Assembly (NCBI GenBank): GCA_023131835.1 | Contig: JAGLZA010000077.1 | Location: 1-40,256, forward strand | Direction of reading: 5' to 3' | Source of the DNA: Caldifarciminota bacterium | Lineage (GTDB): Bacteria; Hydrothermota; UBA3072 | Length of the DNA: 40,256 bases | In this document: positions 1 to 31,447 of the stretch, piece by piece | Numbering within the stretch: the first letter of the stretch is position 1 | Layout of the letters: each line of letters starts with the position of its first letter | Program-made: the position numbers and the translations under genes | Notes under the pieces: model-generated | What the model saw: only the letters and a program-made list of their open reading frames with translations | What the model was told of the DNA's origin: nothing | The model's database searches: none

Positions 1-227
1 GGAAGAGGGATTTCAAGCCCCTCCTCAATTGCTACTTCAAGCCAACCTTCTTGAGCTTCTTTTATATTTTTCATTACTTCTTCTATTGTTTCCCCTTGAC
101 TCATACAACCTTCAAACTCCTCTATCTCCACAAAATACCCCCCTACTTCCTCTGGTGTGATTTTTATTGTATAGGGAAGACCCATATAATATTGAAGAAG
201 TTCCCCCCTACTCTTTTTGTTTTTCAT
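1..227 (-). CDS. hicB: HicB-family antitoxin (partial, runs off the left edge)
   Basis: This minus-strand reading frame starts at an ATG at 227 and is open to base 1, so only about 75 N-terminal residues are visible. The residues GLPYTIKITPEE, GGYFVEIEEFEGCMSQGET and the following EAQEGWLEVAIEEG helix are typical of the HicB partial RNase H-like fold. HicB neutralises the HicA mRNA interferase and usually represses its own operon. The start is supported by GGAGG seven bases upstream. It overlaps the end of the broken hicA gene by 20 bases, the usual hicA-hicB coupling. The C-terminal DNA-binding part, if present, lies outside the window. With hicA interrupted, this may be an orphan antitoxin. 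Confidence 0.8.
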   Translation of the reverse strand, partial: MKNKKSRGELLQYYMGLPYTIKITPEEVGGYFVEIEEFEGCMSQGETIEEVMKNIKEAQEGWLEVAIEEGLEIPL

Positions 228-451
228 ACCACTCCTCCAGTTCCAAGATTTTTATTAATTTTCTCATACATCCTCTCTTGACCTTATTTTTTGCTTTACT
301 ACCCCAAATGGCATATAACCCTCTTTGTAATATGTAAAATGACTACCCTTAACATTTTTTAACTCGGAGGTTATACCCAAAAGTTGTACCACTTTGAGAT
401 GTTTTTTTGTGGATGTCGGAGATTCTTTCTAATTTTATCATCACTTCTAAT

Positions 452-1363
452 TCAGGATTTCTTCTTTTCATTTGACATTCTCTCTTTAATGTAATTCAAT
501 GGAGTTCTATAGTCAAGACTTGAATGTCTTCTCGTTCTATTCCAATAATGAACCCGTTCCTGAACTACTTCGCTCAATCCATTAATGTCTTTAGATTCAC
601 AAAAAAGCGACCGATTAGGACATTTAAAATGTCCATTAAACGATTCCATATAGGTATTACCTTTTGCTCCATTCTCTGAATAAGATAATCGTACTCCATC
701 TTTTATCAATATCTCATCAACCCATCTGTTGCCTGTAAAAACTGAATCCCTATCCTGATGAAGTATCATCCCCTTAAGTGAAATGTGATATTCCTTGAAT
801 GTCTCTTTCGTTCTTTTCCAGGCTTCAAGTGATAAATCAGTATCTGCATGTTTGCCTACTGCCCATCCGAGTATCATCTTGCTTTCATGATCGATTATAG
901 CAATCAATTGGGCATTCCTCTTTCCTCCATCATAAGGAATTTCAGTAAAGTCAGTATAGATGACCTCAAAAAGTCCTATCTGTCCTTTCTTCTTAACCAG
1001 ATTAATATCTTTACCTGCTTCCTGAATGGCTTCTCTAATCCCACTCTTCTTTGTTTTTCGGGCATTTCTTAGCATTTTTAAGTCCCAGAAGTTTAATAGA
1101 TTTAGAATAACTTTATGGTTTACAACTATTCCATATTCTTCTTTGAGTTCAACCTTTATCCTGGGATATCCATACTCTGGATTCTTTCGAATTATCTCTT
1201 CTATGGTTGGCTTTAAATCTCTATACTTCTCTTTATAACTCTTCTTTTCTTTCCTGTGGTAATACCAGGTAGATTTAGATAGCTCTAAAGATTTAAGCGT
1301 TCTGTTTAATCCGTATTCTTCCCATATTTCTTCTACTAATTCTACTTTTTCTGTGTTACTCAT
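452..1363 (-). CDS. IS3-family transposase OrfB (DDE integrase domain)
   Basis: This 303-residue protein catalyses strand transfer of the surrounding element. An HTH_21-type segment (NPEYGYPRIKVELKEEYG, about residues 61-78) precedes an rve integrase core. Candidate catalytic residues are the Asp in IYTDFTEI, the Asp in LHQDRDSVF and the Glu in YMESFNGHFK. It starts at an ATG that shares one base with the orfA stop (TAATG), so it could be made by coupling or, as in other IS3 elements, as an OrfAB fusion after a -1 frameshift. The reading frame is intact and the element may be active. Confidence 0.9.
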   Translation of the reverse strand: MSNTEKVELVEEIWEEYGLNRTLKSLELSKSTWYYHRKEKKSYKEKYRDLKPTIEEIIRKNPEYGYPRIKVELKEEYGIVVNHKVILNLLNFWDLKMLRNARKTKKSGIREAIQEAGKDINLVKKKGQIGLFEVIYTDFTEIPYDGGKRNAQLIAIIDHESKMILGWAVGKHADTDLSLEAWKRTKETFKEYHISLKGMILHQDRDSVFTGNRWVDEILIKDGVRLSYSENGAKGNTYMESFNGHFKCPNRSLFCESKDINGLSEVVQERVHYWNRTRRHSSLDYRTPLNYIKERMSNEKKKS

Positions 1364-1635
1364 TAAACCCGTCCTAAAAAATTTTTAAGAATGGCTATCT
1401 CCCGTTCTTTCTGTCCTAAAAGTCGCTCCAATTCTGCAATCTCTCTCTCTAAGTCTTTTACTTCTCCGTCCTTAGAAAATATTTCAGATCCGTTCTCTCT
1501 AAACCTTTCTACCCAGTTCCGGATGGTATTAGGATGTACATCATATGACCTTGCTATTTGAGATGGATCTCTCTTGTCAGAGATGACTTCCATAACTACT
1601 TGAAATTTTAATCTCGGGGAATATCTCTTTGGCAT
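1363..1635 (-). CDS. IS3-family transposase OrfA (helix-turn-helix)
   Basis: This 90-residue protein has an N-terminal helix-turn-helix (KFQVVMEVISDKRDPSQIAR, then YDVHPNTIRNWVERF) followed by a heptad leucine-zipper-like helix (LEREIAELERLLGQKEREIA). In this family OrfA binds the IS ends and can inhibit transposition by itself. GGAGG lies upstream of the ATG. Its last codons contain the slippery heptamer T-TTT-TTA (plus-strand 1375-1381). A -1 slip there continues through RTGL into the orfB ATG without a stop. Confidence 0.88.
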   Translation of the reverse strand: MPKRYSPRLKFQVVMEVISDKRDPSQIARSYDVHPNTIRNWVERFRENGSEIFSKDGEVKDLEREIAELERLLGQKEREIAILKNFLGRV

Positions 1636-1870
1636 TCTTTCCTCCTTTTTGCCACATCTTTAATTTATTGAATCCCCGAACATATTCAAGACCACAATAC
1701 CCTCTGGTACTAATTTATGGGTCAAGTTCCCTCCCACATAAAATATTCAAGTACCCTTACAATATCCTCAAAACTTGCTTCTACTGGCCTCCTCAACAAT
1801 TTCTCCACAAGCTTCACAAAAGTAGCCACTAATCAACCTCCAATTTTCTCGTCCGGACAGCGGGTATATA

Positions 1871-1902
1871 ATACTATATATAGTATCATATCTAAATGTC
1901 AA
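1871..1902 (-). promoter_or_regulatory. Probable hicAB promoter with a palindromic operator
   Basis: On the minus strand, TTGACA (1902-1897) is followed after 16 bases by TATATA (1880-1875). The -10 lies inside a perfect 16-bp palindrome, ATACTATATATAGTAT (1871-1886). The hicA GTG is about 45 bases downstream. HicB proteins autorepress by binding palindromes over their own promoter, so this is the likely operator; binding is inferred. Confidence 0.6.
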
Positions 1903-2201
1903 GGGTTTTTTTGAATTTTTTCAAAAACCAAAAACACAATGAATTCTTCTTGAGAGTAGGGGCGTTCAATTGAACGCCCCTACCAGATTCTTTTTCCCTT
2001 TCTCCTTCTGAAAACATCATAAATAAAGGGAATTGGTGGGGCTTTGCGAACTTCGCTCCCTTTGCGTGCTTTGCGAGAAAAACGGGGGCTGATGATGGGC
2101 TCTCTCTTCAATTACAAAAAATCAAGGGTGGTGAAGGGCTTTGCGCCCTTTGCCTCCTTTGCGTGCTTTGCGAGAAAAAAAAGGGGTTGTGAGCCATTAT
2201 A
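1890..2201. repeat. Gene-free spacer with a 28-bp palindrome and TTTGCG word repeats
   Basis: A perfect 28-bp palindrome occupies 1956-1983 (half GTAGGGGCGTTCAA then its complement). At 2041-2082 and 2139-2178 two copies of a run built from CTTTGCG words end in TTTGCGTGCTTTGCGAGAAA. The stretch CAATTACAAAAAATCA near 2110 recurs without its first base near 10610. No convincing gene is visible. Confidence 0.65.
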
Positions 2202-2750
2202 TTACTTCCCCTCAAATTGATAATTGCAATGTGGGCAAACTCTGGCTTCTATCCAGATAAGTTCTCCGCATTGAGGGCATCTCTTCTTTTCATCAGTTTC
2301 TGAAGAATCTCGTTTTCCATTAACTCTATCTCTTATCTCAGACGGAGCTCGGACCCCTTCAAATACCACCTCTACACCACCTGTACCAGCCGAAGCAAAA
2401 TATACATCGCCAATTCCAAAAACACGTTGTCCTATACTTTGCTCTATCCCAATCTCCCGTATATCGCTCATTCTAATCTCGCTTTCATGTTTAGCAATAA
2501 TACCAATACGGGAACGAACACTACTGGTTGTGACCGTATAAGTATATGTCAATCTACTAAAAACAGCACGGAGGAGAATTATGATTGCAACGAATATAAA
2601 GAAGTAACTCCAAACCTGGAGTTCGTTAATGAAAAACATAACGGCAATAACAATTGAAATAACAATCAAGAAGAAAAGCCCAAAATAATTAAGCCATGAA
2701 GGGTGAAAAACCTCTATTAAATTGTCTCTTTTCTCATTATTCTTTTCCAC
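2202..2750 (-). CDS. Membrane PH-domain (bPH2/DUF304-like) protein with C-terminal zinc ribbon
   Basis: This 182-residue protein starts at GTG with AGGAGG five bases upstream. Two adjacent membrane segments lie at about residues 20-42 and 46-62. A bacterial PH-like domain follows (LTYTYTVTTSSVRSRIGIIA, then RMSDIREIGIEQSIGQRVFG). A charged linker ends in a zinc ribbon with CPQC and CPHC pairs near the C-terminus. PH-like proteins of this type are usually of unknown function, and the ribbon suggests protein or nucleic acid binding on the cytoplasmic side. It is monocistronic, with its own promoter upstream. Confidence 0.8.
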   Translation of the reverse strand: MEKNNEKRDNLIEVFHPSWLNYFGLFFLIVISIVIAVMFFINELQVWSYFFIFVAIIILLRAVFSRLTYTYTVTTSSVRSRIGIIAKHESEIRMSDIREIGIEQSIGQRVFGIGDVYFASAGTGGVEVVFEGVRAPSEIRDRVNGKRDSSETDEKKRCPQCGELIWIEARVCPHCNYQFEGK

Positions 2751-2784
2751 GATTACCTCCTGTTAATATTTTGTATTTTAGTTG

Positions 2785-2813
2785 AATATAGGGAAATATT
2801 GGGGTAAAGTCAA
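2785..2813 (-). promoter_or_regulatory. Promoter of the PH-domain/zinc-ribbon gene
   Basis: TTGACT (2813-2808) and TATATT (2790-2785) on the minus strand are separated by 17 bases. They lie about 35 bases upstream of the GTG, which has its own ribosome binding site. This is a good housekeeping sigma-type match. Confidence 0.55.
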
Positions 2814-3093
2814 GGAAACCTTAGTTAAAGACAAAGAGTTGGTGGGTTAGTGAGTTGGTGGGTTAGTCGGTTCATCCCAGACCTCCACAGGAATTAGGGA
2901 TTAGGATTTAGGTGTTAGGATTTAGGGCACAACCCAGACCTTCACCAGAAACAAGAAAGGCGAAGATGAACATACTGTACAACCTCCGAGCTTTTTCCAT
3001 TTTTGTGCTCTTCTTTGTGTCCTTTGTGTCTTTGTGGTGAATAAAGTGGGTCGGGACTGGGAAGTCGCTCCCACAAAAAGGATGGTTATTCTT
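2814..3093. repeat. Spacer of word-like repeats downstream of leuD
   Basis: There is no supported gene. Near-tandem words fill it: GTTGGTGGGTTAGTGA-like units at 2840-2875, TTAGGATTTAGG units at 2895-2930 and CTTTGTGT words at 3010-3035. A 39-base segment at 2953-2992 recurs at 3651-3689 with few changes (shared core CAACCTCCGAGCT). Confidence 0.6.
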
Positions 3094-3573
3094 TTAACCC
3101 AACCTTCCCTTCACCCACTCAATAAGGCTTCCTGCCTGTAGTATTTCCAATAGTTTGTCAGGATACGGGGCAAAGGAAAAATCCTTACCAGGGGTTTTTA
3201 TTAACCCTGATTTAAGGTCCACCTCAACCTCATCCCCTTCTGAGATTGTTTCTACGGCTTCCGGATGTATGATAGCAGGTAATCCATTGTTTATTGCGTT
3301 TCTGAAAAAGATGCGCGCAAACGATTTTGCAATAATTGCAGAAATCCCTGAATAGACGAGACAGGTTACCGCCTGCTCCCTGGATGACCCCATACCAAAG
3401 TTATAACCCGCAACAATAACATCACCCTTTTCTACTCTTTCAATAAAGGTTGAATCAAGGTCTTCCATTGCATGCTCTGCCATCTCTTCTGGATTGTCGA
3501 TTGAATATGTATACTTACCAGGATAGATTACATCTGTATTAACATCATCTCCATACTTGAATACCTTTCCCAC
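3094..3573 (-). CDS. leuD: 3-isopropylmalate/homoaconitate dehydratase small subunit
   Basis: This protein is the swivelling small subunit of an aconitase-family hydro-lyase. With the LeuC-type large subunit upstream it would isomerise 2- and 3-isopropylmalate in leucine synthesis. It has the start motif GKVFKYGDDVNTDVIYPGKY and the core motif AGYNFGMGSSREQA, followed by IIAKSFARIFFRNAINNGLP. I chose the GTG at 3573 because AGGAGG lies seven bases upstream; an in-frame ATG at 3594 has the Shine-Dalgarno inside the coding region. At 159 residues it fits the short archaeal-type LeuD. That group also contains homoaconitase and citramalate-type enzymes, so the substrate is not certain. About 320 repeat-rich bases separate it from leuC. 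Confidence 0.85.
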   Translation of the reverse strand: MGKVFKYGDDVNTDVIYPGKYTYSIDNPEEMAEHAMEDLDSTFIERVEKGDVIVAGYNFGMGSSREQAVTCLVYSGISAIIAKSFARIFFRNAINNGLPAIIHPEAVETISEGDEVEVDLKSGLIKTPGKDFSFAPYPDKLLEILQAGSLIEWVKGRLG

Positions 3574-3600
3574 TTCTATACCTCCTATCTGCATTTTGCA

Positions 3601-3690
3601 GTGGGTTCACACGCTCGGAGGTAGACAGATATGACATGATGAATAAAGTTAAGAAAAGCGAAGATGTACATACTGTCAACCTCCGAGCTG
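3601..3690. repeat. Large imperfect hairpin in the leuC-leuD gap
   Basis: GCTCGGAGGTAGACAG (3613-3628) pairs with CTGTCAACCTCCGAGC (3673-3688) with a single mismatch and a 44-base loop. The right arm and loop part recur upstream at 2953-2992 without the left arm. It lies inside what should be a leuC-leuD transcript and could act as a processing or attenuation structure, or be a mobile repeat. Confidence 0.55.
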
Positions 3691-3699
3691 TACGATTTA

Positions 3700-3893
3700 A
3701 AATCTGGGTGAGATTGCTTCGTCGCTTCGCTCCTCGCAATGACATCCGAGAGGACAAGGTATACCTTGTCCCTACATTTTGGGCGACTCACCGAGTCGCC
3801 CCTACAAGGCGCAAAACTTGTGGGGGCAATTCATGAATTGCCACTACTCCATCAAATAAATCGCGGGCAGGAGCCCGCTCCCACAAAAAAATC
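3700..3893. repeat. Composite palindromic repeat array, copy 1
   Basis: A chain of different palindromes: GACAAGGTATACCTTGTC (3753-3770), GGGCGACTCACCGAGTCGCC (3781-3800), GCAATTCATGAATTGC (3826-3841) and a GCGGGCAGGAGCCCGC hairpin near 3865. A GCTTCGTCGCTTCGCTCC word lies at about 3716-3733. Modules one to three recur in the same order near 10383, in reverse near 26261-26335, and with an insert at 31280. No gene is seen. Confidence 0.7.
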
Positions 3894-5129
3894 TTATATC
3901 TCCCCCCTTGGGTCAGCGATCTCTCCCTTTATACAGGAAATTGCCACGGTTGCAGGTGAAGCAAGATAGATCTCTGCTTCCGGAGAACCCATCCTTCCCT
4001 TGAAATTTCTATTGGCAGTAGATAAAGCCTTCTCACCAGGGGCAAGAACCCCCATATGAGCACCAAGGCAGGGCCCACAACCAGGACTCTCTATAAGAGC
4101 TCCAGCCTCGGAAAATACCTCAAGATATCCCTTTCTCGCTGCTTCACTATATATTTCCCTGCTTGCCGGAATCACTATGAGTCGGACATCGGGATTTATT
4201 TTCTTTCCCTTTAATATTTCACAGGCAACCTCAAGGTCCTCCAATCTCCCATTGGTGCAAGTGCCAATGAACCCTTGATTGAATTTCATCCCCAGATATT
4301 TCTCTATGGGATGAACATTATCCACTTGATGCGGAGCTGCAATCTGTGGAGAGAGTCTGCTTACATCAAAATTCAATTCTTTTTCTACTTCAGCATCAGG
4401 ATCAGACGTAACTATCTCAAAATCCCCTTTTGCCCTAACTTTAAGCCAGGAAAGGGTCTTTTCATCTGGTTTGATCCATCCATTCTTAGCCCCCATCTCA
4501 GCAGCAACATTTGAGAGAACTATCCTGGAAGCAATCGAGAAATCCTCTACAGTGGCTCCTAAAAACTCAACAGACTTATATAGAGCACCACCTGCACCTA
4601 TTTCACCTGTAATGTAGAGGATAACATCCTTGGCATATACTCCTCTGGGTAGTTCTCCATCTATAACAATCCTTATCGTCTCAGGAACCCTAAACCATAT
4701 CTCATCCAGAGCCCATAAGGACGCAACCTCACTCCTGCCAATCCCACAGGAGAAAGCACCAAACGCACCATAAGTAGTAGTATGGGAATCTGCTCCAACA
4801 ATAATCTTACCAGGAAGGGCAAAGCCCTCTTCAGGTAGAACCTGATGGCATATCCCCTTACCAACATCAAAGAAGTTTTCAATACCCTGGTCCTTAACCC
4901 ACTCCCTGGCCTTCTTATGGTTCTCTGCATAGATGGGTGAAGAAGCAGGAGTCACATGGTCAAGGATAATCACAATTTTTTCAGGAGAAGCAACCTTCTT
5001 TGCTCCCATTTTCTCAAACTTCTTGATGATAGCACTGGTATTATCATGAGAGAGAATCCTATCCGGCGAGATAGTAACAATGCTCCCTACATTTCCTCCA
5101 AGAACCTTTTCAATGAATGTTTTCCCCAA
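3894..5129 (-). CDS. leuC: 3-isopropylmalate/homoaconitate dehydratase large subunit
   Basis: This 411-residue protein is the iron-sulfur subunit of the same hydro-lyase as LeuD. The cluster cysteines are in GFIGTCTNGR and ESPGCGPCLGAH. Other family motifs are HDNTSAIIKKF, ILDHVTPA, GADSHTTTYGAFGAF and TANRNFKGRMGSP. I chose the TTG at 5129: GGAGG lies six bases upstream and the product then begins MGKTFIEKVLGG like its relatives. A longer frame to 5201 would overlap the preceding barrel gene by 71 bases. The RBS overlaps the stop codon of that gene, so they are probably cotranscribed. The length matches the archaeal-type large subunit. Confidence 0.87.
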   Translation of the reverse strand: MGKTFIEKVLGGNVGSIVTISPDRILSHDNTSAIIKKFEKMGAKKVASPEKIVIILDHVTPASSPIYAENHKKAREWVKDQGIENFFDVGKGICHQVLPEEGFALPGKIIVGADSHTTTYGAFGAFSCGIGRSEVASLWALDEIWFRVPETIRIVIDGELPRGVYAKDVILYITGEIGAGGALYKSVEFLGATVEDFSIASRIVLSNVAAEMGAKNGWIKPDEKTLSWLKVRAKGDFEIVTSDPDAEVEKELNFDVSRLSPQIAAPHQVDNVHPIEKYLGMKFNQGFIGTCTNGRLEDLEVACEILKGKKINPDVRLIVIPASREIYSEAARKGYLEVFSEAGALIESPGCGPCLGAHMGVLAPGEKALSTANRNFKGRMGSPEAEIYLASPATVAISCIKGEIADPRGEI

Positions 5130-5130
5130 A

Positions 5131-5955
5131 TTAACCTCCGTATCCAATCGCAATCGTCTTACCAATCCCAAGGGGGCCATAAAATACAGAACCAATATCA
5201 ATAATTATCTTCTTGTAGTAAAAACGAACCCCCATTGAGCCTCCATCTATCACACTTAGGCCATTCCCTGAGTTCTTATCCCTGATACCATTATTATATC
5301 CCATTGTTAAATCAAACCAATCATTGAATCCATAAATAATAGAACCCGCCGGACCAAAACTAAAACTATATTCGAGTGAAAAACCCAGTTTATTTCTCTT
5401 ATAAAGGCTTCCTATACGGAATTCTGCAGGAAGATTTTCCTTGCTCTCCACAAAACCCTTAATCTGTCTACCAATATTTCTACCATAGAATGAGAGAGTA
5501 ATCTCTTTGTTGACTTCATAGAGCAACCCCACATCCATACCAACACCATAACTATGATATGTATCTGTGTTGACATAAGGAATAAGCAATTTTCCTCCAA
5601 CAGATAATCCGTTCCAGTTATATGTAACAGAAGCGATCGGGATAAGTGAATAATATGAAAACTCGCCCAGAAGTTCACCTTCGGGACTGGTCTTCTTCAT
5701 ATCTCCCGAATATAGAGATTGAAGCCCTATCCCAAAATGGAATTGGCTCCTCTGCTTTACCATACCAAGGCAGCCATAGGTAACACCAGAATAATTATAG
5801 GAGGATGATAGATATCCCTCTCCTCCGATCCCGGCAGGATTCCAGAATAGGTTCTCCGGCTCCCCTTTATATGATGAAAAAGCCCCTCCGGAAAGTATAA
5901 CCCTTGAATGTTCAGGAACGGATAGGAATGTAAATGAGATTATCAGTATAATCAT
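5131..5955 (-). CDS. PorV/PorQ-like outer-membrane beta-barrel protein
   Basis: This 274-residue protein has a short hydrophobic signal sequence (MIILIISFTFLSV) and alternating aromatic/glycine-rich strands. The PorV/PorQ-family signature is a small-residue stretch followed by ENLFWNPAGIGG (about residues 34-45). In Bacteroidetes, PorV and PorQ belong to the type IX secretion machinery. This window also encodes a protein with a matching sorting domain (26370-28502), but no other secretion genes are here, so the role is inferred. Its ATG overlaps the glmS stop (ATGA), and leuC follows directly, so it lies inside a metabolic operon. Confidence 0.7.
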   Translation of the reverse strand: MIILIISFTFLSVPEHSRVILSGGAFSSYKGEPENLFWNPAGIGGEGYLSSSYNYSGVTYGCLGMVKQRSQFHFGIGLQSLYSGDMKKTSPEGELLGEFSYYSLIPIASVTYNWNGLSVGGKLLIPYVNTDTYHSYGVGMDVGLLYEVNKEITLSFYGRNIGRQIKGFVESKENLPAEFRIGSLYKRNKLGFSLEYSFSFGPAGSIIYGFNDWFDLTMGYNNGIRDKNSGNGLSVIDGGSMGVRFYYKKIIIDIGSVFYGPLGIGKTIAIGYGG

Positions 5956-7778
5956 TCTACAGTTACTGATTTCGCCAGATTTCTCGGACGATCGACATCT
6001 CGCTTATTGAGGACAGCACTGTAATATGCCAATAATTGAAGAGGCAATGCCACTAATATAGGAGATACATTCTCACCACAGGGAGGAATATAGAAAACCT
6101 CATCACTTATATCCTTTATCCTCTTATCACCTTCAGTAGCTATCGATATGATTCTGGCACCTCTTGAACGAACCTCCTCTATATTACTCAGCATCTTTTC
6201 ATACACAGAGGACTGGGTAGCAATTGCAACAACAGGGCTGTTTTTATCAATAAGTGCTATAGGACCATGCTTCATCTCCCCTGCCGGATAGCCTGTTGCA
6301 TGAATATAGGATATCTCTTTTAATTTCAAGGCACCTTCCAGGGCAGAAGGGTAATTAATCCCTCTCCCTATGAACATAAAGTCCCTTGAATCCTTGAACT
6401 TTTCTGCTATCTGTTTTATACTGTCGGCTTTATTTAGTATCGTTCTCATCTTCTTTGGTATCTCAATGAGTCCTTTTAACTTTTCATCTATTGAAGAAGC
6501 CTCAAGTGCCCATCTGAGCTTTGAAAGATATAGAGCCATAAGGTATAACTGGAGTATTTGTGATGTATAGGCTTTTGTGGAAGCAACGCCTATTTCAGGA
6601 CCTGCGTTTATATACACCGTGCTCTCTGATTCCCTTGCTATCGTACTACCTCTAACATTTACTATGGAAAGAACCTTGAGGAATTTTGCCTTAGCCTCGC
6701 GGAGACCAGCAAGGGTATCTGCTGTTTCTCCTGATTGACTTACAGCTATAACAAGGGTTTCTCCGCCCATAACGGGATTCCTGTATCTGAATTCCGATGA
6801 GATGTCAACTTCTGTATGTATTCTCGCAAATTCCTCAAAGAGATATTTTCCTATATAACCTGCATGCCAGGATGTCCCACAGGCTTGAATAACAATATCA
6901 GTTAGATGTGCAAGGTCATGGGGTGAAAAATGAAAACTCTCGCCAAGATTAAACTCACCATCCTCAATCCTGAGGGCAATATTCCTCTCAATAACCTCTG
7001 GCTGTTCATATATCTCTTTGAGCATATAATGGGCATATTCTCCCTTATCAAGGCTGGTGGGACTCCATTTTATCTCTTTTTCTTTCTTTTCTATCCTCTT
7101 GCCTTCTTTATCATAGAATTCTACACTGTCTTTTCTTAAAACAGCCAGTTCTCCATCACTCATAATGATAACCCGTCTGGTGTGATCGATAATAGCCGGA
7201 ATGTCCGAGGCAGCCAAACTCTCATTGTTTCCCAATCCCACAATCAATGGACTTCCCTCCCTGTATATAACAATACGATCAGGTTCACTGGAGACGATCA
7301 CTGCGATTGCAAAGGACCCTCTCAGTTTTGAAACAGATTTGAGAACGCTCTCTTTTAGGTCTCCATTGTAATTCTCTTCTATGAGATGGGCTATGACCTC
7401 CGTGTCCGTATTCGATTGAAATATATGTTTATTTTTAATAAGTTCCTCTTTTAGAGAGTAATGATTTTCAATTATACCATTATGAACTACTGCAATTTTA
7501 CCACTACAATCTACCTGTGGGTGGGCATTTTGATCTGATGGTTCTCCATGGGTCGCCCATCTTGTATGCCCAATACCAGCCCCACCACCAATTGGTCTAT
7601 CTGAAAGGATATCCTGAAGTACCATCAATCTTCCAAGTGCCTTCCTCACTTCAAGCTCACCATCCATAATCGAAGCAACCCCGGATGAATCATAACCTCT
7701 GTATTCTAATCTCCAGAGTCCTGCCATCAAGACAGAGTTCAAATCCTTATCACCCACATATGCCATAATACCACACAT
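5952..7778 (-). CDS. glmS: Glutamine-fructose-6-phosphate aminotransferase (isomerizing)
   Basis: This enzyme makes glucosamine-6-phosphate from fructose-6-phosphate and glutamine, the first step to UDP-GlcNAc for peptidoglycan and LPS. The N-terminal class II glutamine amidotransferase domain begins MCGIMAYVG with the catalytic Cys2, followed by GHTRWATHGEPSDQNAHP. Two SIS domains follow (VIAVSQSGETADT; FIGRGINYPSALEGALKLKE). The C-terminus RPRNLAKSVTVE is canonical. At 608 residues it is full length. The ATG directly abuts the glmM stop and the ribosome binding site GGGGAGG lies within the glmM end, indicating coupling. There is no room for a glmS ribozyme. Confidence 0.97.
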   Translation of the reverse strand: MCGIMAYVGDKDLNSVLMAGLWRLEYRGYDSSGVASIMDGELEVRKALGRLMVLQDILSDRPIGGGAGIGHTRWATHGEPSDQNAHPQVDCSGKIAVVHNGIIENHYSLKEELIKNKHIFQSNTDTEVIAHLIEENYNGDLKESVLKSVSKLRGSFAIAVIVSSEPDRIVIYREGSPLIVGLGNNESLAASDIPAIIDHTRRVIIMSDGELAVLRKDSVEFYDKEGKRIEKKEKEIKWSPTSLDKGEYAHYMLKEIYEQPEVIERNIALRIEDGEFNLGESFHFSPHDLAHLTDIVIQACGTSWHAGYIGKYLFEEFARIHTEVDISSEFRYRNPVMGGETLVIAVSQSGETADTLAGLREAKAKFLKVLSIVNVRGSTIARESESTVYINAGPEIGVASTKAYTSQILQLYLMALYLSKLRWALEASSIDEKLKGLIEIPKKMRTILNKADSIKQIAEKFKDSRDFMFIGRGINYPSALEGALKLKEISYIHATGYPAGEMKHGPIALIDKNSPVVAIATQSSVYEKMLSNIEEVRSRGARIISIATEGDKRIKDISDEVFYIPPCGENVSPILVALPLQLLAYYSAVLNKRDVDRPRNLAKSVTVE

Positions 7779-9119
7779 TTAATTCCTCCCCTGTTGTTCT
7801 ACTATATCACAGAGCCTTCTTGCACCCTTTAATGTTGGCGCTTCTGCTATAACACGAACCACTGGCTCTGTCCCACTCATTCTTATGTGAACCCAGCTGT
7901 CATTCGTTTCTATCCTTACTCCATCTCTCAAGTCAAGTTTCTTATCCTTATTGGCATTCTTTACCCTTTCAACGAATTTATTCCGTTTTTCTTCATCCTT
8001 TAACTTTACAGTATGTTTTACTATCCTATACTGCGGTATCGTATTCATTAAATGGGATAAAGAGGTATCCCTCTCCGTAAGATATTGGAGAATGAGTGCC
8101 ATTGCACCCATTGCATCACGCGTATACTGTAGTGTTGGAATGATAACCCCACCATTCCCCTCACCCCCTATTATTGCATTTTTATCTTTCATCCACGAAA
8201 CCACATTCGCTTCCCCAACAGGTGACCTGAAGAAAGAAACTCCGGCTCTCCCGGCAATATCCTCCACAGCCCTTGTAGTGGATAGATTGACGACAACCGG
8301 GCCCTTCTCCTTCTTCAAAATCGCATCAACAGCAAGAACAATGGTATTTTCCTCTCCAAGGGCATCACCTTTATCAGAAACAATAGACAGACGATCACCA
8401 TCAGGATCGGTAGCAAAACCAATGTCGGCCTTTACTTCTTTCACCTTTTCCATCAATTCTATAAGACTCTTTACCCCGGGTTCAGGTTCCCTCAAAAATT
8501 CTCCTGTTCCATCACAGAAAATAGGATAGACAGCACAATTAAGACGCTTAAGGAATTCCGGATAAGCTCTGGATGCCGCACCGTTCACACAATCTACCAC
8601 TACGGTAAATCTCCTCCTGGATATTTCAACCGGATTTATAAATCCATTGCCAAGGACTCCCTTTATATGATTTTCTATTGCCTCACTATTTTCCCTTCTC
8701 TTCCCTAATCCATCCCATTCATGCCAAATAACAGGTTTTTCTTCATAGGAAAAGAATTCCCTGGCCTTATCCTGGTCAAGGAATTCTCCTTCAGCACTAA
8801 CCAGTTTTAAGGCATTCCATTGTGTTGGATTATGTGATGCAGTAATCACAATTCCCCCGGAAGCATTGGAAGTCTTCACATTATAGAGTAGAGTTGGAGT
8901 CGGAACCACCCCTACATCAATAACATCTACTCCAACGCCCATAAGTCCTGCGAAGACGGCATTCTTCAATGTTTCCCCTGATATCCTGCTATCCCTTCCT
9001 ACTATTACCTCCCCTCCCTCTAAGAATTCTCCGAAATGTGCGGCATAGTTCAAGACAACGGAAGGATCCAGACCATCACCTACAATTCCTCTAATACCTG
9101 ATACGCTCTTTATAATCAT
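7779..9119 (-). CDS. glmM: Phosphoglucosamine mutase-type phosphohexomutase
   Basis: This 446-residue enzyme would convert glucosamine-6-phosphate to glucosamine-1-phosphate, the step after GlmS, its operon neighbour. The alpha-D-phosphohexomutase motifs are all present: phosphoserine loop TASHNPTQWNALK (Ser95), metal loop DPDGDR (residues 238-243), sugar-binding GGEGNGG, and phosphate-binding RMSGTEPVVRV near the C-terminus. The sugar loop GEGNGG resembles archaeal/thermophile-type phosphoglucosamine or phosphomannomutases, so some breadth of substrate is possible; the context favours GlmM. GGAGAGG precedes the ATG. Its first 29 bases overlap the end of hflX. Confidence 0.88.
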   Translation of the reverse strand: MIIKSVSGIRGIVGDGLDPSVVLNYAAHFGEFLEGGEVIVGRDSRISGETLKNAVFAGLMGVGVDVIDVGVVPTPTLLYNVKTSNASGGIVITASHNPTQWNALKLVSAEGEFLDQDKAREFFSYEEKPVIWHEWDGLGKRRENSEAIENHIKGVLGNGFINPVEISRRRFTVVVDCVNGAASRAYPEFLKRLNCAVYPIFCDGTGEFLREPEPGVKSLIELMEKVKEVKADIGFATDPDGDRLSIVSDKGDALGEENTIVLAVDAILKKEKGPVVVNLSTTRAVEDIAGRAGVSFFRSPVGEANVVSWMKDKNAIIGGEGNGGVIIPTLQYTRDAMGAMALILQYLTERDTSLSHLMNTIPQYRIVKHTVKLKDEEKRNKFVERVKNANKDKKLDLRDGVRIETNDSWVHIRMSGTEPVVRVIAEAPTLKGARRLCDIVEQQGRN

Positions 9120-10182
9120 CTATCCTCTCCAATAAGGAATCTAATCCCTTCTTCTCCTTTGCTGAGATGAATATAGCATTGGGATTTTGTTTTTGCAAGT
9201 GAGATAAAATCACAGAATCATAAACCATATCAATCTTGTTATAGACCATGATATTATATTCGCTTTGGATTTCCAATCCCTCCATAACAAGAGAAGTCTC
9301 TTCTAATTCCTCTTTATACCTCTCGGAAGAAGCATCTACTAATATCAAGCGGAGATCTGCGGTAATGGCCTCTTCAAGGGTAGATCTAAAGGAAGCCATG
9401 AGTTGCGTGGGGATTCCCCGAATAAAACCCATTGTATCGGTAAGAAGAAATTTATTTCCTCTCTTTGTAACACCTATACGAGTTAGAGGATCAAGTGTGA
9501 CGAAGAGTTGATCATCCACCTCTGCTCCTGCATGAGTCAACGCATTGAGGAGTGTCGTTTTACCTGAATTTGTATAGCCTAAAATAGATACAGTAAACAT
9601 CCCATCTCGATGACTCCTCTGAATCCTTCTTGTCCTTTCTATTTTATTGAGCTCTTTCTTGAGGTAATCTAACCTCTTTCGAATCTTCCTTCTATCAACC
9701 TCTAATTTCTTTTCTCCGGGACCTCTCGTCCCGATTCCTCCTCCCAGTCTTGAGAGTTCTTTCCCTCGACCGATGAGTCTTGTCAGACGGAAGGATAGTT
9801 GAGCAAGTTCAACCTCTATCTTAGATGCCTTTGTTTTTGCATGTTGTGCAAAGATATCAAGGATTATATCATATCTATCAAGCACCTTCTTTCCTGTCAG
9901 CTCTTCAAGATTAACAATCTGAGCAGGAGAAAGGGGTTCATTAAAAAGCAGTATATCAACATCAATGCTCCGAAGCGATTGAGCTTTACCCTTGCCAATA
10001 AAATAGGCAGAATCCGGTTTATCCTTGACCTGTATAATCTTCTCAATAGGAATACTCCCTGCAGTCTTTGCAAGTGATTCTAATTCCTCTAACTCATATA
10101 ACTCTGTGCCCTTTTCATCGGAATTTCTAACAAGGCCCACGATGAGGACCTTTTCCTTTTTATTGTCCTGTAGTTCAATCAT
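9091..10182 (-). CDS. hflX: Ribosome-associated GTPase HflX
   Basis: HflX splits stalled or stressed ribosomes using GTP hydrolysis. The N-terminal HflX domain contains YFIGKGKAQSL and FNEPLSPAQ, then the glycine-rich linker RLGGGIGTRGPGEKKLEVDRR. The G domain has G1 GYTNSGKTT (about residue 202), G3 DTMGF (about 249) and G4 NKID. At 363 residues it is a compact but complete family member. It is the first gene of the minus-strand cluster and overlaps glmM. The ATG has no Shine-Dalgarno and sits seven bases after a -10-like hexamer, so the mRNA may be leaderless. Confidence 0.94.
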   Translation of the reverse strand: MIELQDNKKEKVLIVGLVRNSDEKGTELYELEELESLAKTAGSIPIEKIIQVKDKPDSAYFIGKGKAQSLRSIDVDILLFNEPLSPAQIVNLEELTGKKVLDRYDIILDIFAQHAKTKASKIEVELAQLSFRLTRLIGRGKELSRLGGGIGTRGPGEKKLEVDRRKIRKRLDYLKKELNKIERTRRIQRSHRDGMFTVSILGYTNSGKTTLLNALTHAGAEVDDQLFVTLDPLTRIGVTKRGNKFLLTDTMGFIRGIPTQLMASFRSTLEEAITADLRLILVDASSERYKEELEETSLVMEGLEIQSEYNIMVYNKIDMVYDSVILSHLQKQNPNAIFISAKEKKGLDSLLERIDDYKERIRY

Positions 10183-10189
10183 TAATGGG

Positions 10190-10217
10190 AAGATAATAAC
10201 AAATACTCAAAAATCAA
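10190..10217 (-). promoter_or_regulatory. Candidate hflX promoter (leaderless)
   Basis: TTGATT (10217-10212) and TATCTT (10195-10190) are separated by 16 bases. The start codon at 10182 is seven bases past the -10, where transcription would begin. It is weaker than the other promoters listed. Confidence 0.4.
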
Positions 10218-10810
10218 GTGGGGTGATTCCTAAACACCGCCCCATTATTCAAACAGCAGATTAACGAAAGAGGAATTAATGTGTTGATCAGTTGGTGCGT
10301 TAGTGAGTTGGTTTGTTGTTCGTAGGGGCACGGGGCCCGTGCCCCTACGATTTAAAGGAGAGTGAACAATGACATCCGAAAGGACAAGGTGTACCTTGCC
10401 CCTACAGATATCGCGACTGGGAAGTCGCTCCTACAGGGCGCGAAACTTGTAGAGGCAATTCATGAATTGCCCCTACTCCAAAAAGAGGTGAGGGCGAACG
10501 CAGTTCGCCCCTACAAAAAAAATTCTCTGCGAACTCTGTGGTTAAACAATCAGTTTAATCAGAAAGAATCTGTGTCTAAAAAAACGGTGGGAGGGTTATG
10601 TGCTCTCTCTCGAATTACAAAAAATCAGGGGTGAGGGTGGGCTCTTTCGTTCATCTGCGTTTATCTGCGGTTAAATTTTTGTGCGTGGGGATGGGTTCTT
10701 TAAATCGGTTTAATCGGTGGAAATCAGTGTCAAAAAAACGGGTTATAGGAGTGGGATTAAAACCGCATGGGTTACCCCTACATAAAAATCTTAAAACTCC
10801 CCATCAAAAA
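10218..10810. repeat. Repeat-filled spacer between hflX and tRNA-Val (includes composite copy 2)
   Basis: I see no gene in this stretch. A 29-bp palindrome lies at 10321-10349 (arms CGTAGGGGCACGGG). Composite copy 2 spans 10383-10479: a GACAAGGTGTACCTTG module, a GCGACTGGGAAGTCGC module, then GGCAATTCATGAATTGCC. It is followed by a GGCGAACGCAGTTCGCC palindrome. The block 10367-10405 closely repeats 3737-3775. Word repeats follow, with TTTAATC/AATCAGTGTC words at 10548-10600 and 10696-10745. Short open frames here are built from repeat sequence. Confidence 0.65.
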
Positions 10811-10812
10811 GG

Positions 10813-10840
10813 TTGACAATTCACCGCCTCTTGTTATAAT
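10813..10840 (+). promoter_or_regulatory. Consensus promoter of the tRNA-Val/thrS operon
   Basis: TTGACA (10813-10818) and TATAAT (10835-10840) both match the sigma-70 consensus exactly, with 16 bases between. The tRNA 5' end lies 11 bases after the -10, leaving a leader of only a few bases. Confidence 0.85.
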
Positions 10841-10850
10841 ATGACAAAAT

Positions 10851-10923
10851 GGGCGATTAGCTCAGGGGTTAGAGTATTTGCGTGACATGCAAAGGGTCAG
10901 TGGTTCAAATCCACTATCGCCCA
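10851..10923 (+). tRNA. tRNA-Val (anticodon GAC)
   Basis: This is a 73-nt cloverleaf. Acceptor GGGCGAT pairs with ATCGCCC, with discriminator A. The D-arm is GCTC-AGGGGTTA-GAGT. The anticodon stem TTTGC/GCAAA encloses loop GTGACAT, giving anticodon GAC. The T-loop is TTCAAAT. No CCA is encoded. It is only 16 bases upstream of thrS and shares its promoter, so thrS mRNA must be released by 3' end processing of the tRNA or be read as a tRNA-mRNA dicistron. Confidence 0.95.
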
Positions 10924-10939
10924 TTTTTGATAGTTTGAT

Positions 10940-12865
10940 ATGAAAATAAAGATTAATATAAGTAATAAGAGCACTGTTATAGAAACAGAAGAAGGACTTT
11001 CCCTAAAAAAAATTCTTGAAAGGAAAGAGCCTTCTCTATTAGATAAATATGCTGTGGCATGGTGTGATGAAAAGTTAATTGATTTCCATACGCCTGTCAG
11101 AGAGGAAGGGGAGTATTTTCTTCTTTCATTGAACGATGAGCGTTCGATGAAAGCAATGTGGCATACAACATCCCATATAATGGCTCAGGCAGTAAAACGT
11201 CTGTATAAGGTAAACCTTGCAATTGGCCCTGCAATTAAAGATGGCTTCTATTATGATATTGACACCCAAACCCCATTTACAGATGAAGACCTTAATAAAA
11301 TCTCGAAAGAGATGAAAAAAATAATCGAGAGCAATTATCCTATTGAATACGAATCAATAACAAAGAAAAACGCAAAGGAGATATTTGCTGATAATAAATT
11401 TAAACTTGAACTAATTCAGGAGATAGAGGATGAACAAGTATCTATCTATAAGCAAGGGGGATTTATTGACCTTTGTAAGGGACCACATCTATTATCCACT
11501 GGCAAGGTTTCAGCCTTCAAATTATTATCGGTTGCTGGCTCCTACTGGAGAGGGGATGAACATCGGGAATCACTACAACGCATATACGGAATATCCTACT
11601 CAAATAAGGAATCACTTAATGAATACCTTTATCGTTATGAAGAGGCAAAGAAGAGAGATCACAGAAAACTGGGAAGGGAATTGGATCTTTTTAATATCTA
11701 TGAAGATGTGGGAGCAGGACTCGTGGTATGGCATCCAAAAGGTGCAACAATAAGAGAGGTCATAGAGGAATTCTGGAAGAAAGAGCATATAAAACGAGGC
11801 TACGAGATAATAAGAACCCCCCATATTGCAAAGAGTAAACTCTGGAAAATATCAGGGCATTATGATTATTACCTGGAGAATATGTATACCTTCAAAGTCG
11901 ATAATGAAGAATATGTGCTAAAACCAATGAACTGTCCCTACCATATTCTTGTATACAATAGTGATATCAGGAGTTATCGTGACCTTCCAATAAGATATGC
12001 AGAACTTGGAACCGTGTATCGTAATGAGAGATCAGGTGTTCTTCACGGGATGTTACGGGTCCGTGGGTTCACAATGGATGACGGTCATATATTCTGCAGG
12101 GAAGACCAGGTGACAGACGAAATCGGGAAGGTGCTGGATTTTGCATTTGATATGATAAAAACATTTGGATATAAGGATTTTGAAGTACATCTTTCAGTAA
12201 GAGACCCTGAACATAAAGAGGATTATGCCGGGAATGATAAAGAATGGGAAAAAGCAGAAGGAGCATTGATTGAGACACTAAATGAAAGGAATATCGAGTA
12301 TGAGCGAAAAGAAGGGGAAGCAGTCTTCTACGGACCAAAGATTGATATAAAAATAAAGGATGCTCTCGGTAGAGAATGGCAGGGTCCAACCATTCAATTT
12401 GATTTCAACCTACCAGGGAGATTCAAAATGAAATATATTGGCGAAGATGGAAATGAGCATCCCGTCTATATGATTCACCGCGCTCTCCTCGGATCACTTG
12501 AACGCTTTGTTGGCGGGCTAATCGAACACTACAACGGAAATTTTCCTCTCTGGCTGGCTCCGACTCAGATCAGGGTGCTTACTGTCACAGATAAAGGAAA
12601 TGAATTCGCAAAGGAAATGTACGAAAAATTAAAGATGAATGGGTTCCGTTGCGAACTGGACTTGAAAAATGCAAAGTTATCAAAAAAAATCAGGGATTCG
12701 GAAATACAAAAAATTCCATATATATTCATCATAGGAGCGAAAGAAGTTGAATCAGAAACCATATCGCTAAGACATCATCTCGAGGGAGATATTGGCAGTT
12801 TCAGCATCAAGGAGGTACTAACTCATATAAAAGGAGAACTTAACAGGGAGGTAACTTATATCTAA
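10940..12865 (+). CDS. thrS: Threonyl-tRNA synthetase
   Basis: ThrRS charges tRNA-Thr. In order it has an N-terminal TGS domain (about 1-60), an editing domain with HTTSHIMAQAV and CKGPHL, a class II core with MNCPYHILVY (zinc Cys) and RNERSGVLHGMLRVRGFTMDD, and an anticodon-binding domain with LAPTQIRVLTV. At 641 residues it is full length. The ATG has no Shine-Dalgarno; the 16 bases after the tRNA are U-rich. No T-box or other leader is possible in this space. It is first in the conserved series infC-rpmI-rplT-pheS-pheT. Confidence 0.96.
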   Translation: MKIKINISNKSTVIETEEGLSLKKILERKEPSLLDKYAVAWCDEKLIDFHTPVREEGEYFLLSLNDERSMKAMWHTTSHIMAQAVKRLYKVNLAIGPAIKDGFYYDIDTQTPFTDEDLNKISKEMKKIIESNYPIEYESITKKNAKEIFADNKFKLELIQEIEDEQVSIYKQGGFIDLCKGPHLLSTGKVSAFKLLSVAGSYWRGDEHRESLQRIYGISYSNKESLNEYLYRYEEAKKRDHRKLGRELDLFNIYEDVGAGLVVWHPKGATIREVIEEFWKKEHIKRGYEIIRTPHIAKSKLWKISGHYDYYLENMYTFKVDNEEYVLKPMNCPYHILVYNSDIRSYRDLPIRYAELGTVYRNERSGVLHGMLRVRGFTMDDGHIFCREDQVTDEIGKVLDFAFDMIKTFGYKDFEVHLSVRDPEHKEDYAGNDKEWEKAEGALIETLNERNIEYERKEGEAVFYGPKIDIKIKDALGREWQGPTIQFDFNLPGRFKMKYIGEDGNEHPVYMIHRALLGSLERFVGGLIEHYNGNFPLWLAPTQIRVLTVTDKGNEFAKEMYEKLKMNGFRCELDLKNAKLSKKIRDSEIQKIPYIFIIGAKEVESETISLRHHLEGDIGSFSIKEVLTHIKGELNREVTYI

Positions 12866-13382
12866 AAAACCAGAACGAAGAATAAACGAAGAAATAAAGG
12901 CGGTAAAGATCCGTTTGATAGACGGCGAGGGTAATCATAAAGGAGTAGTGGACAGAAATACTGCTATCAGGGAAGCAAAAGAGAAGGGTCTTGACCTTGT
13001 TGAGGTCGTGGAAGATACAAATCCACCTGTCTGCAAGATGATAGATTATGGGAAATATCTCTATCAACAGAAAAAGAAAACAAGAAAGGAAAGAAAAAAA
13101 CAAAAACAGACACTTAAAGAAATGAAATTTTATCCCAAGATAGAACGGCATGATTATGAAACCAAGTTGAGACATATAAGGAAATTCTTAAGCGATAATA
13201 ATCCTGTCCGTATTCAGATATGGATGAGGGGGAGAGAGAAACTGCATCCCGAATTAGCAAGAAATTTGCAGCAAAGAATCATAAAGGATACCGAAGATAT
13301 TGCTAAAATCCAGGAAGGAGAAAAATCCACAGCACAACGTTTTCAATTCCAGTTAATGCCTACAGGAGGTAGTAATGCCTAA
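12858..13382 (+). CDS. infC: Translation initiation factor IF-3 (AUA start)
   Basis: IF-3 prevents 70S joining and proofreads the start codon in the P site. The 174-residue protein has the N-domain signature RRINEEIKAVKIRLIDGEGN, a lysine-rich linker helix, and a C-domain (EMKFYPKIERHDYETKL). The family N-terminus is in frame only back to an ATA codon at 12858, because TAA lies two codons upstream. GGAGG is six bases from that ATA. A later TTG at 12915 would delete the conserved N-terminus. E. coli infC starts with AUU and autoregulates through its own discrimination against such codons; AUA here would serve the same role. It overlaps thrS by eight bases. Confidence 0.9.
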   Translation: MSKKPERRINEEIKAVKIRLIDGEGNHKGVVDRNTAIREAKEKGLDLVEVVEDTNPPVCKMIDYGKYLYQQKKKTRKERKKQKQTLKEMKFYPKIERHDYETKLRHIRKFLSDNNPVRIQIWMRGREKLHPELARNLQQRIIKDTEDIAKIQEGEKSTAQRFQFQLMPTGGSNA

Positions 13383-13566
13383 GTTAAAAACAAAAGGTGC
13401 AATCAAAAAGAGATTTAGAACTACAAAAACGGGTAAGATAAAGTTCAAAAGAGCAAACAGTAATCATCTACGATCAAAACACTCAAACAAGAATAAGAAC
13501 AGGCTTAATAAAGATAAGATACTACCAAGCGCAGAAAGCAAAAGGTTGAAAAACCTTATACATTAG
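13375..13566 (+). CDS. rpmI: 50S ribosomal protein L35
   Basis: This 63-residue, strongly basic protein begins [20 protein letters not shown], the canonical bL35 N-terminus, and continues with [12 protein letters not shown]. bL35 binds 23S rRNA in the large subunit. It overlaps the end of infC by eight bases and is preceded by GGAGG inside infC. The gene order infC-rpmI-rplT is the standard arrangement. No L20-binding pseudoknot leader can be recognised by eye. Confidence 0.96.
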
Positions 13567-13574
13567 GAGGATTG

Positions 13575-13940
13575 ATGCCAAGACAAAAGAATGTAGTCGC
13601 AAGGCGAGAAAGAAGAAAGAAGATACTAAAGAGGGCAAAAGGCTTCTTCGGAAAGAGGAAGAACTCATACAGGATAGCAAAAGAAGCTGTTATGAAAGCA
13701 CTCGCCTATGCCTATAGGGATAGACGCCGCAGGAAGAGGGACTTCAGAGGTCTCTGGATCATAAGAATAAATGCAGCCGCACGACTCAATGGACTTTCGT
13801 ATAGCAAGTTAATTGCTGGACTTAAGAAAGCGAATATACCCCTAAACAGAAAGGTCCTTGCGTATATCGCAGTCAGGGAACCAGAGGTCTTCACCAATAT
13901 AGCGGAGATTGCAAAAGAGACACTGAATGAAGTTAGATGA
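13575..13940 (+). CDS. rplT: 50S ribosomal protein L20
   Basis: bL20 is an assembly protein of the large subunit. The 121-residue sequence begins [20 protein letters not shown] and contains [20 protein letters not shown] and [20 protein letters not shown] use the ATG at 13575; a TTG one codon upstream is in frame, but AGGAGG is better spaced for the ATG. In many bacteria L20 represses rpmI-rplT translation. It overlaps pheS by 14 bases. Confidence 0.96.
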
Positions 13941-16915: not shown

Positions 16916-17091
16916 ATATAATAGATGTAGAGCATCTAAGAGAGATAATAAATAAGTGTATCAGAACAATAAAAGAATTGAGGGAAGAGAATGAACAACT
17001 TCATTCAGAACTCAGGAAGGAGCAATTGAAGAAAGAAAAGGCTATAGAAGAAATAAATAAACTGGAAAACGACATAAAAGAGAGGCATTAA
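16912..17091 (+). CDS. Small coiled-coil protein coupled to zapA
   Basis: A 59-residue frame starts at ATG 16912, overlapping the pheT stop (ATGA), and ends TAA at 17091, directly before the zapA GTG. The sequence is almost entirely heptad-patterned: MNIIDVEHLREIINKCIRTI, then KELREENEQLHSELRK, then EEINKLENDIKERH. I do not recognise a family. The position, size and coiled coil suggest a ZapB-like or other ZapA-associated division protein, as an inference. The tight coupling on both sides and the maintained frame argue that it is real. Confidence 0.7.
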   Translation: MNIIDVEHLREIINKCIRTIKELREENEQLHSELRKEQLKKEKAIEEINKLENDIKERH

Positions 17092-17328
17092 GTGGGAAAA
17101 GAAGTAGAAGTAAAAATTTTAGGCAATAAATATTCCTTTCTTACAGATAGGGATGTTAAAGAGACCTTAAATATCGCTATGTATGTAGATGAGGAAGCAA
17201 GAAGAATAAAAGAGGAAAATCCATACTCTTCTGAAAGCACCATTGCAATACTCACAGCATTGAACATAGCGGATAAGATCTTCACGATTGGTTCGGAAAT
17301 AGAAAAACTTGGAAGATATGTAGAATAG
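17092..17328 (+). CDS. zapA: Cell division protein ZapA
   Basis: ZapA bundles FtsZ filaments at midcell. The 78-residue protein starts at GTG and has the family N-terminus EVEVKILGNKYSFLTDRD followed by a long helix (TIAILTALNIADKIFTIGSE) that forms the tetramer coiled coil. It is slightly shorter than E. coli ZapA. It follows the small coiled-coil gene with no gap. The position after pheT and before rny is common in several phyla. Confidence 0.85.
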   Translation: MGKEVEVKILGNKYSFLTDRDVKETLNIAMYVDEEARRIKEENPYSSESTIAILTALNIADKIFTIGSEIEKLGRYVE

Positions 17329-17370
17329 TTTTCCCACTGACCTCTCTCAAAGAAGAAAGGAGAGGTTCAA

Positions 17371-26157: not shown

Positions 26158-26369
26158 TAAAGGCGACTCGCCGAGTCGCCAAAATTACCCATTTTTAGCC
26201 ACGGTTTCTGCACTGTTTTGAGACAGATTTTTTAGCCACAGAGGCGCGAATTATTTAACGGAGTAGAGCAAACTTGTTTTGTGCGCCTTGTAGGGGTGAG
26301 TCGTCCAAAATGTAGTGACAAGGCATACCTTGTCCTCTACTGAAGGGAATATATTGTTAAGAAGTCACC
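26158..26369. repeat. Repeat spacer after dnaJ, with a reversed composite copy
   Basis: GGCGACTCGCCGAGTCGCC (26162-26180) is a perfect 19-base palindrome just after the dnaJ stop and might also act as a weak terminator. TTTTTAGCCACGGTTTCTGC (26194-26213) is the reverse complement of a word found near 30251, 36675 and 40207. 26261-26335 is the composite array in reverse, partly deleted, ending in GACAAGGCATACCTTGTC. Confidence 0.6.
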
Positions 26370-28570: not shown

Positions 28571-29196
28571 TTTTTTATTTCATGTTATAAGAAAAAACCC
28601 ATTCGTCAAGTAAAAATTGCCTTCCATCTGAGAAAACCAGGGCACAAGGCTTACACTTAAAAAAACTCATCATAAAGAACTCAGTTTTTAATCTTAGGGA
28701 GGTGATTCATCACGCCCTCTCCACTTTCATTCTTTGCCACTGATATAAATTTCTCGCAAAGGGCGCAAAGAGAGCAAAGCTCGCAAAGAGATATTTATGT
28801 AAAAAATTGTAGGGGCAGGTCTTGTCCCATGTAATAGGAAACTATGGGGACGCATTTTTATTACACAGGGCGAGCATCTGCCCTTTTGTAGGGGCGTATT
28901 GCATACGCCCTACATTCCTGTTATAATTATGGAGTAGAGGCAATTCATGAATTGCCTCTACAAGCCCGCCCCGTTAGATAATTTCTTTATCTAACGGGGT
29001 AAACGCTCTGTAGGGGGCTTGATTTATCGAACTCGAATCATCAAATCCGGAGAAAAAGGTTCGAATCCCTCCCCATCTCGACCACCCTTGCTTGATCTCA
29101 CAAGCTCAAAACATTGGTTTTTACGGAAAAATCTTAAAAAAATATATTGACAAAAGGTATCTCAGTTATAGATTGAAAAAAATTGGAGGTTTTCTT
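28571..29196. repeat. Repeat-rich spacer upstream of the lipoprotein gene
   Basis: CTCGCAAA/GCGCAAAG words lie at 28752-28790. Palindromes occupy 28888-28913 (arm GTAGGGGCGTAT) and 28934-28961 (arm GTAGAGGCAATTCA). A perfect 13-bp stem-loop sits at 28969-28999. Around 29058-29088 a T-loop-like GGTTCGAATCC lies in a tRNA-like context, but no cloverleaf can be built. TTGACA at 29147 may belong to a promoter for the next gene. No gene is supported. Confidence 0.55.
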
Positions 29197-31101: not shown

Positions 31102-31447
31102 AACAACTAAAAAAGGCATCACACTACCCCCATTTTATTAACCACAGATAAACGCAGAACTCAACCACCCTCCCTTAATTCTTTGTAACGAAGAAAAACA
31201 AGAAGAAAGGGACAGAAAGAAGGGGACGGGGGAATAGCTCTTTGACAATGGACAATACATTCTCTTCAGGAGAGAAAAGGACAAGGCATGCCTTGTCCCC
31301 ACACTTTTGGGCTTGCCCCGTGAAATGTTTACTATTTAGTGGGGCGACTCACCGAGTCGCCCCTACAAATGGGCAGGTGCAAGACCTGCCCCTACTGTAT
31401 TATACATTAATCCCAAGGGCACGATACCTCGTGTTCCCTCTATCCTC
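31102..31447. repeat. Repeat spacer with composite copy 3
   Basis: 31280-31396 holds GACAAGGCATGCCTTGTC, then an inserted GCCCCGTGAAATGTTTACTA-type hairpin, then GGGGCGACTCACCGAGTCGC and a GGGCAGGTGCAAGACCTGCC hairpin. The module order matches 3753-3850. ACCACAGATAAACGCAGAAC near 31141 is a word-repeat unit. No gene is supported. Confidence 0.6.

Follow-up and report, generated by a model that had tools for sequence, protein, structure and literature searches.

The window analysed here, the whole 40,256 nt of contig JAGLZA010000077.1 from a Caldifarciminota bacterium (assembly GCA_023131835.1), contains several rows of short palindromes that belong to the repetitive extragenic palindromes (REPs) carrying a GTAG tag. 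These palindromes are real and far above chance. The window has 14 copies of the motif CCCCTACA, where 0.95 would be expected; an Rfam search of the window returned tRNA only. The original prediction, made from the sequence alone, had described four copies of a single composite chain, but only copy 1 (3752-3847) contains it in full, as GGACAAGGTATACCTTGTCC, GGGCGACTCACCGAGTCGCCC, GGCGCAAAACTTG and GGCAATTCATGAATTGCC, the other three being partial or including other modules. Thus, copy 2 (10383-10476) has an imperfect first module, the linker and the AATTC palindrome, with a different REP, TCGCGACTGGGAAGTCGCTCCTAC, in the middle. Copy 3 (26335-26261, minus strand) retains the first module and only half of the GACTC module, is without the AATTC palindrome, and in place of the linker has a whole hairpin, GGCGC-ACAAAAC-AA-GTTTG-CTCTACTCC. 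Copy 4 (31279-31395) has neither linker nor AATTC palindrome; roughly 40 nt of other sequence stand between its modules 1 and 2, and an AGGT-type REP comes after these. The features are collected in Table 1.

Table 1. REP elements and chains located in the window (ssDNA, single-stranded DNA).
Feature	Position	Strand	Remarks
Double-foot REP, GTTC type	1956..1983	.	
CGTC-type repeat (TGTCATTGCGAGGAGCGAAGCGACGAAGCAATC)	3712..3744	-	7 nt beyond the ACAAGG module
GTAG REP, ACAAGG type: GTAG + GGACAAGGTATACCTTGTCC	3752..3775	-	Folds as ssDNA, GTAG foot unpaired; -7.5 kcal/mol, z -4.4
GTAG REP, GACTC type: GTAG + GGGCGACTCGGTGAGTCGCCC	3781..3805	-	-10.7 kcal/mol, z -5.8
Hybrid module: double-foot AATTC REP (3820-3847) fused to a single arm of the GGAGTAG-family REP GGAGTAG-CRRAC-TT-GYYYG-CGC (the 'linker')	3806..3850	-	Retains the GGAGTAG-family outer tag as CTACTCC
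Double-foot REP, ACGG type	10322..10348	.	
ACAAGG-type REP, imperfect	10383..10406	-	Whole composite matched by BLAST at 83%
GTAG-1-like REP (GTAG-GA-GCGACTTCCCAGTCGC-GA), not the GACTC module	10411..10434	-	
CRRAC-REP arm + double-foot AATTC REP (10449-10476)	10437..10479	.	
GTAG REP, GAAC type	10492..10514	-	Next chain member
Partial chain: ACAAGG REP (26312-26334, GTAG on plus strand), half GACTC module, unsplit CRRAC-type hairpin	26261..26335	-	Hairpin ends in CTACTCC
Double-foot GTAT REP + double-foot AATTC REP	28888..28961	.	Adjoins the ortholog of a gene that neighbours a GACTC-ACAAGG chain in same-family genome G001
ACAAGG-type REP	31279..31302	-	Also has ssDNA fold
GACTC-type REP	31339..31366	-	Also has ssDNA fold
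GTAG REP, AGGT type	31371..31395	-	

The GTAG REP superfamily is defined by an unpaired GTAG foot and a short hairpin (PMC3733652), and the modules are GTAG-tagged REPs of this kind. Each consists of the unpaired foot followed by a perfect hairpin, and on folding of the GTAG-tagged modules as ssDNA the stem is closed and the GTAG free (z -3.5 to -5.8). The genome comprises 3.89 Mb in 537 contigs; modules were counted in a 1.21 Mb sample of it, partly picked by matches to the composite, with reversed sequence as the control. GTAG followed by a hairpin of at least 7 bp occurred 509 times, against 28 in the reversed sequence, with about 25 arm types. The AATTC, GTTC, GTAT, ACGG and ACGAGG types are often double-foot, with GTAG on both sides; the remaining types are almost always one-sided. 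The common outer flanks GTAGGGGC...GCCCCTAC that had been noted were borne out, with 57 exact cases genome-wide and 0 in a reversed-pattern control; a text search with GTAGGGGC gave nothing useful. The GACTC module had 34 matches in the sample, and conservation outside the modules falls to nothing.

The modules lie mainly between genes: 397 of 469 are outside open reading frames (ORFs) of at least 100 aa, even though about 81% of the sample is ORF. This position, together with their GC-rich hairpins, would suit immobile transcription terminators or stabilisers of mRNA ends maintained by selection. However, the modules are not rarer between divergent genes (2.5 per kb, against 1.9 per kb between convergent genes), which argues against a plain terminator role, and a terminator scan of window positions 1-20000 gave 18 against 17.5 in shuffles. 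Since such a role also leaves unexplained the GTAG tags and the palindromes inside transposase genes described below, we regard it as improbable.

A BLAST search of the whole genome with positions 3740-3850 gave 77 matches, almost all covering only a part of the chain. Besides the window copy, only C23:5560-5658 (87%) and C513:10370-10479 (83%) matched nearly the full query; most matches spanned either modules 1 and 2 (query 10-68) or the linker and AATTC palindrome (57-111). Neighbouring modules within 14 nt of each other are predominantly head-to-tail (77, against 14 head-to-head and 6 tail-to-tail; p 5e-9), and the commonest gap is 5 nt. Among the 69 head-to-tail pairs that could be typed, with TTCGAT kept as a family separate from GTTC, none was homotypic (7.0 expected, P 0.0004). 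The modules had been predicted to keep one order, and this holds as a strong bias rather than as a fixed rule: among pairs seen at least twice, one order is kept in 46 of 53, where 37 are expected by chance (0 of 5000 trials). Random order, which had been named as grounds for abandoning the idea, is not what the sample shows.

The order might instead reflect common descent from a fixed composite of about 100 bp that spread as a block by duplication or recombination and was then eroded, with no current mobility of the REPs. Indeed, the spacers at the junctions are near-identical: AAAAT lies between GACTC and ACAAGR, and a CGTC-type repeat follows ACAAGR at exactly 7 nt five times in the sample. 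Similarly, the leader GCAAAGAGAATTCTGTTTT often precedes GACTC, and the GACTC-ACAAGR junction, with 9 copies in this genome and two in the same-family genome G001, is absent from 197 others. On the other hand, GACTC has several upstream and several downstream partners, the join falling in each case at the edge of the module, the 69 typed pairs comprise 36 distinct ordered types, and nothing is conserved outside the modules. We consider descent from such a block a serious but less probable explanation.

The GCGCAAAACTTG-like segment that had been read as a linker proved to be a single arm of a REP from a different family, and it is into that REP that the AATTC palindrome is fused. This arm, GGCGCRAAACTTG, is that of the REP GGAGTAG-C(RR)AAC-TT-GTTYYG-CGC, intact copies of which exist. 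A GGAGTAG-family arm followed by an AATTC REP was found in 40 copies, and 31 of the 40 keep the CTACTCC tag at the far end. With the arm on one side and CTACTCC on the other, the module is therefore a hybrid of the GGAGTAG-family and AATTC REPs.

The proposal that these elements are served in trans by a REP-associated tyrosine transposase (RAYT) was right in kind, and, as had been observed, no RAYT was found in the window itself. Four RAYT/TnpAREP genes, one of them broken, are present on other contigs of the same genome, and palindromes that match lie upstream of them, within them and/or downstream. They were recovered using as query a 178-aa RAYT from the phylum-mate G019, with GGAGTAGCAGAGCTTGCTCTGCGCCC on each side of it and a CGAAAC module adjacent, both modules being common in the genome of the window; its contig matches SOIS01000242.1, from a metagenome-assembled genome that NCBI names Candidatus Cloacimonadota. 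A scan of genome contigs gave 5 loci, one being the query locus. A view of the genome based on PF01797 only had shown just Y1 proteins of about 300 aa, and was overturned by this short query from a relative. Five such Y1 transposases of about 300 aa are present, one per contig (L071, L072, L073, L074 and L075), with no REP within 1.5 kb.

All four genes have in-frame REP palindromes between the HuH and Tyr motifs, of arm types that are seen again near the genes and throughout the genome. At C212:6037-6639, GTATTGCAATAC palindromes stand 16 bp upstream of the ATG and, in frame, within the RAYT gene, while a GTTC palindrome covers the stop codon. On the same contig, the broken gene at 14134-14496 (L110:14134-14496; motifs YQ and YIIMNP) has AATTC palindromes before, inside and over the stop. 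C296:2311-2919 (L208) contains two in-frame head-to-head REP pairs, TTCGAT-GTGAT and GAGG-GTCAG, which recur elsewhere in the genome, and C45:6182-6760 has ACAAGATATATCTTGT inside. In alignment, the motifs NHFH/NHIH, WQ and YIxNNP fit TnpAREP subclass 2.4. Pfam Y1_Tnp scored above its cut-off for C212:6037, C296 and C45; NCBIfam REP_Tyr_transpos gave 67-74 bits against a cut-off of 80, and the only PDB match was the E. coli TnpArep 4ER8. Two further loci may be mentioned here. At C88 (L207:8016-8598), four copies of GGTGGGCARTGCCCACC, yet another type of palindrome and one accompanied by GTAG or CTAC, come after a RAYT fragment. At C101 of genome G012 (L211:2589-3410), the palindrome within a RAYT has an in-frame TAG (CRGV*PYAPT), such that the REP interrupts the gene.

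Of 36 RAYT loci from this phylum and others, 26, among them all four genes of this genome, contain a GTAG hairpin within the gene, the tag lying a median of 39 nt after the HuH codon. Where both are present, the internal arm type agrees with the arms flanking the same gene (12.75/14, against 7.8 when shuffled; 0 of 5000), in a test of eight RAYT loci, some of them close relatives. RAYTs flanked by the same REPs were found for the GTAT, GTTC, AATTC, GAGG and GTGAT types in this genome, and for the GGAGTAG family only in G019. A search of plasmids for RAYTs gave 4 distant matches; the two inspected have GTAG hairpins beside the gene and inside neither. The RAYT-like gene on the Leptolinea sp. 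HRD-7 plasmid AP024711.1 (L262:186-1534) is flanked at each end by hairpins of the GTAGGGGCGGAT..ATCCGCCC type but contains none.

These genes bear on two further explanations. The window encodes an IS3-like transposase (452-1363; rve and HTH_21 domains), and the hairpins could in principle be miniature inverted-repeat transposable elements (MITEs) of a DDE transposase such as this. However, the units are just 23-28 bp, many have a one-sided GTAG tag, and the matching palindromes are found around and inside HuH/Tyr RAYTs instead, making a MITE origin highly improbable. An artefact of assembly or contamination might be suspected in a genome of 537 contigs, and contamination had been named as a possible explanation, but we find it hardly credible: the elements are spread over dozens of contigs, lie in frame within RAYT genes of this very genome and occur also in G001, and reported contamination is 2.39%.

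The variety of arms had seemed unusual. For this group it is not, since each RAYT, in this phylum as in others, has an arm type of its own. The presence of several RAYT/REP pairs in one genome goes far to explain how arms vary beneath a shared GTAG tag and G/C foot, and the variety reflects these pairs together with concerted change of both arms. Such change is seen in a comparison of 13 copies of the GACTC-ACAAGR junction, 11 of them distinct: in the second helix, 5 of the 9 pairs differ in both partners and none in a single partner. Template switching inside the hairpin and selection for recognition by the transposase would each account for this, and one or both may keep the hairpins perfect.

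The results presented above suggest a model, which we consider likely, whereby non-autonomous GTAG REP hairpins are moved as single strands in trans by HuH/Tyr RAYT/TnpAREP proteins, mainly of subclass 2.4, and mixed chains arise by joining on the same strand. In a folded REP, RAYTs are known to act on a single strand, with cleavage near CT or CA (PMC8266576). The RAYT genes here carry their own REP upstream, internally and downstream, and the encoded proteins would catalyse the movement. An element recognised on one strand only would be inserted on that strand, 3-5 nt away from another, giving a head-to-tail chain. Alternatively or additionally, blocks once joined may spread as units, and identical neighbours could be missing through deletion of adjacent identical hairpins. 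REP content differs at two orthologous loci, where a chain is present in G001 and absent in this genome, so that chains were acquired or lost after the two genomes diverged; for mobilisation by a RAYT this is circumstantial. Conceivably, although we think it rather unlikely, existing REPs serve as directional landing sites, at which a RAYT that reads nothing but the GTAG strand adds a REP of another type within a few bases; mixed chains would then grow one way and their preferred order would record which RAYTs were active at what time.

Several points weigh against movement by RAYTs as the source of the chains. The sample was chosen in part by composite matches, and in the sequential subset C1-C40 the head-to-tail excess is weak (13:4:1, p 0.10; with gaps up to 40, 16:4:1, p 0.03). 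Repeated junctions may stem from few founder blocks, so that the counts are not independent, and neither are the loci of the arm-match test. No pair of empty and filled sites was found for a single module. Finally, no intact RAYT was found in this genome for GACTC or ACAAGG, which form the core junction, or for the GGAGTAG family; the corresponding genes may be lost, unassembled or diverged.

As compound repeats made of REPs, the chains resemble the bacterial interspersed mosaic elements (BIMEs) of Escherichia coli and REPINs, which are likewise built from REPs. They differ from BIMEs in that neighbours are of different type and in the same orientation, whereas the regularly spaced REPs of BIMEs alternate in orientation (PMC2817692). 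The GTAG foot and hairpin, and the several families per genome, are as in the GTAG and CGTC superfamilies (Di Nocera et al, 2013; PMC3733652), of which GTAG-1-like and CGTC-like elements are present here too; unlike in those superfamilies, the head-to-tail arrangement predominates. The closest features are those of TnpAREP subclass 2.4, equivalent to RAYT group 4 of Bertels et al: these proteins share NH[IFV]H, WQ and YIxNNP and a length near 194 aa (Quentin et al, 2018; PMC6006769). Their REPs include long ones with G-C pairs at the base of the stem as well as double-foot ones, and the genes enclose in-frame REPs between HuH and Tyr. The REPs and RAYTs are therefore of known kind, and both internal in-frame and double-foot REPs have been published. 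Not described in the consulted parts of the paper on subclass 2.4 are the head-to-tail chains of mixed type, the two REP pairs inside one gene and the hybrids with a foreign outer tag. Head-to-tail, mixed, order-biased chains with hybrid modules represent a variant that we did not find described in the surveys and papers open to searching.

How REPs spread, and how new REP families originate, is poorly understood. The combination of several RAYT/REP pairs, palindromes inside the genes and one-way chains provides an ordered record of insertion, from which the choice of target and the succession of elements could be read, and the hybrid modules and the changes made to both arms at once bear on the origin of new REP families.
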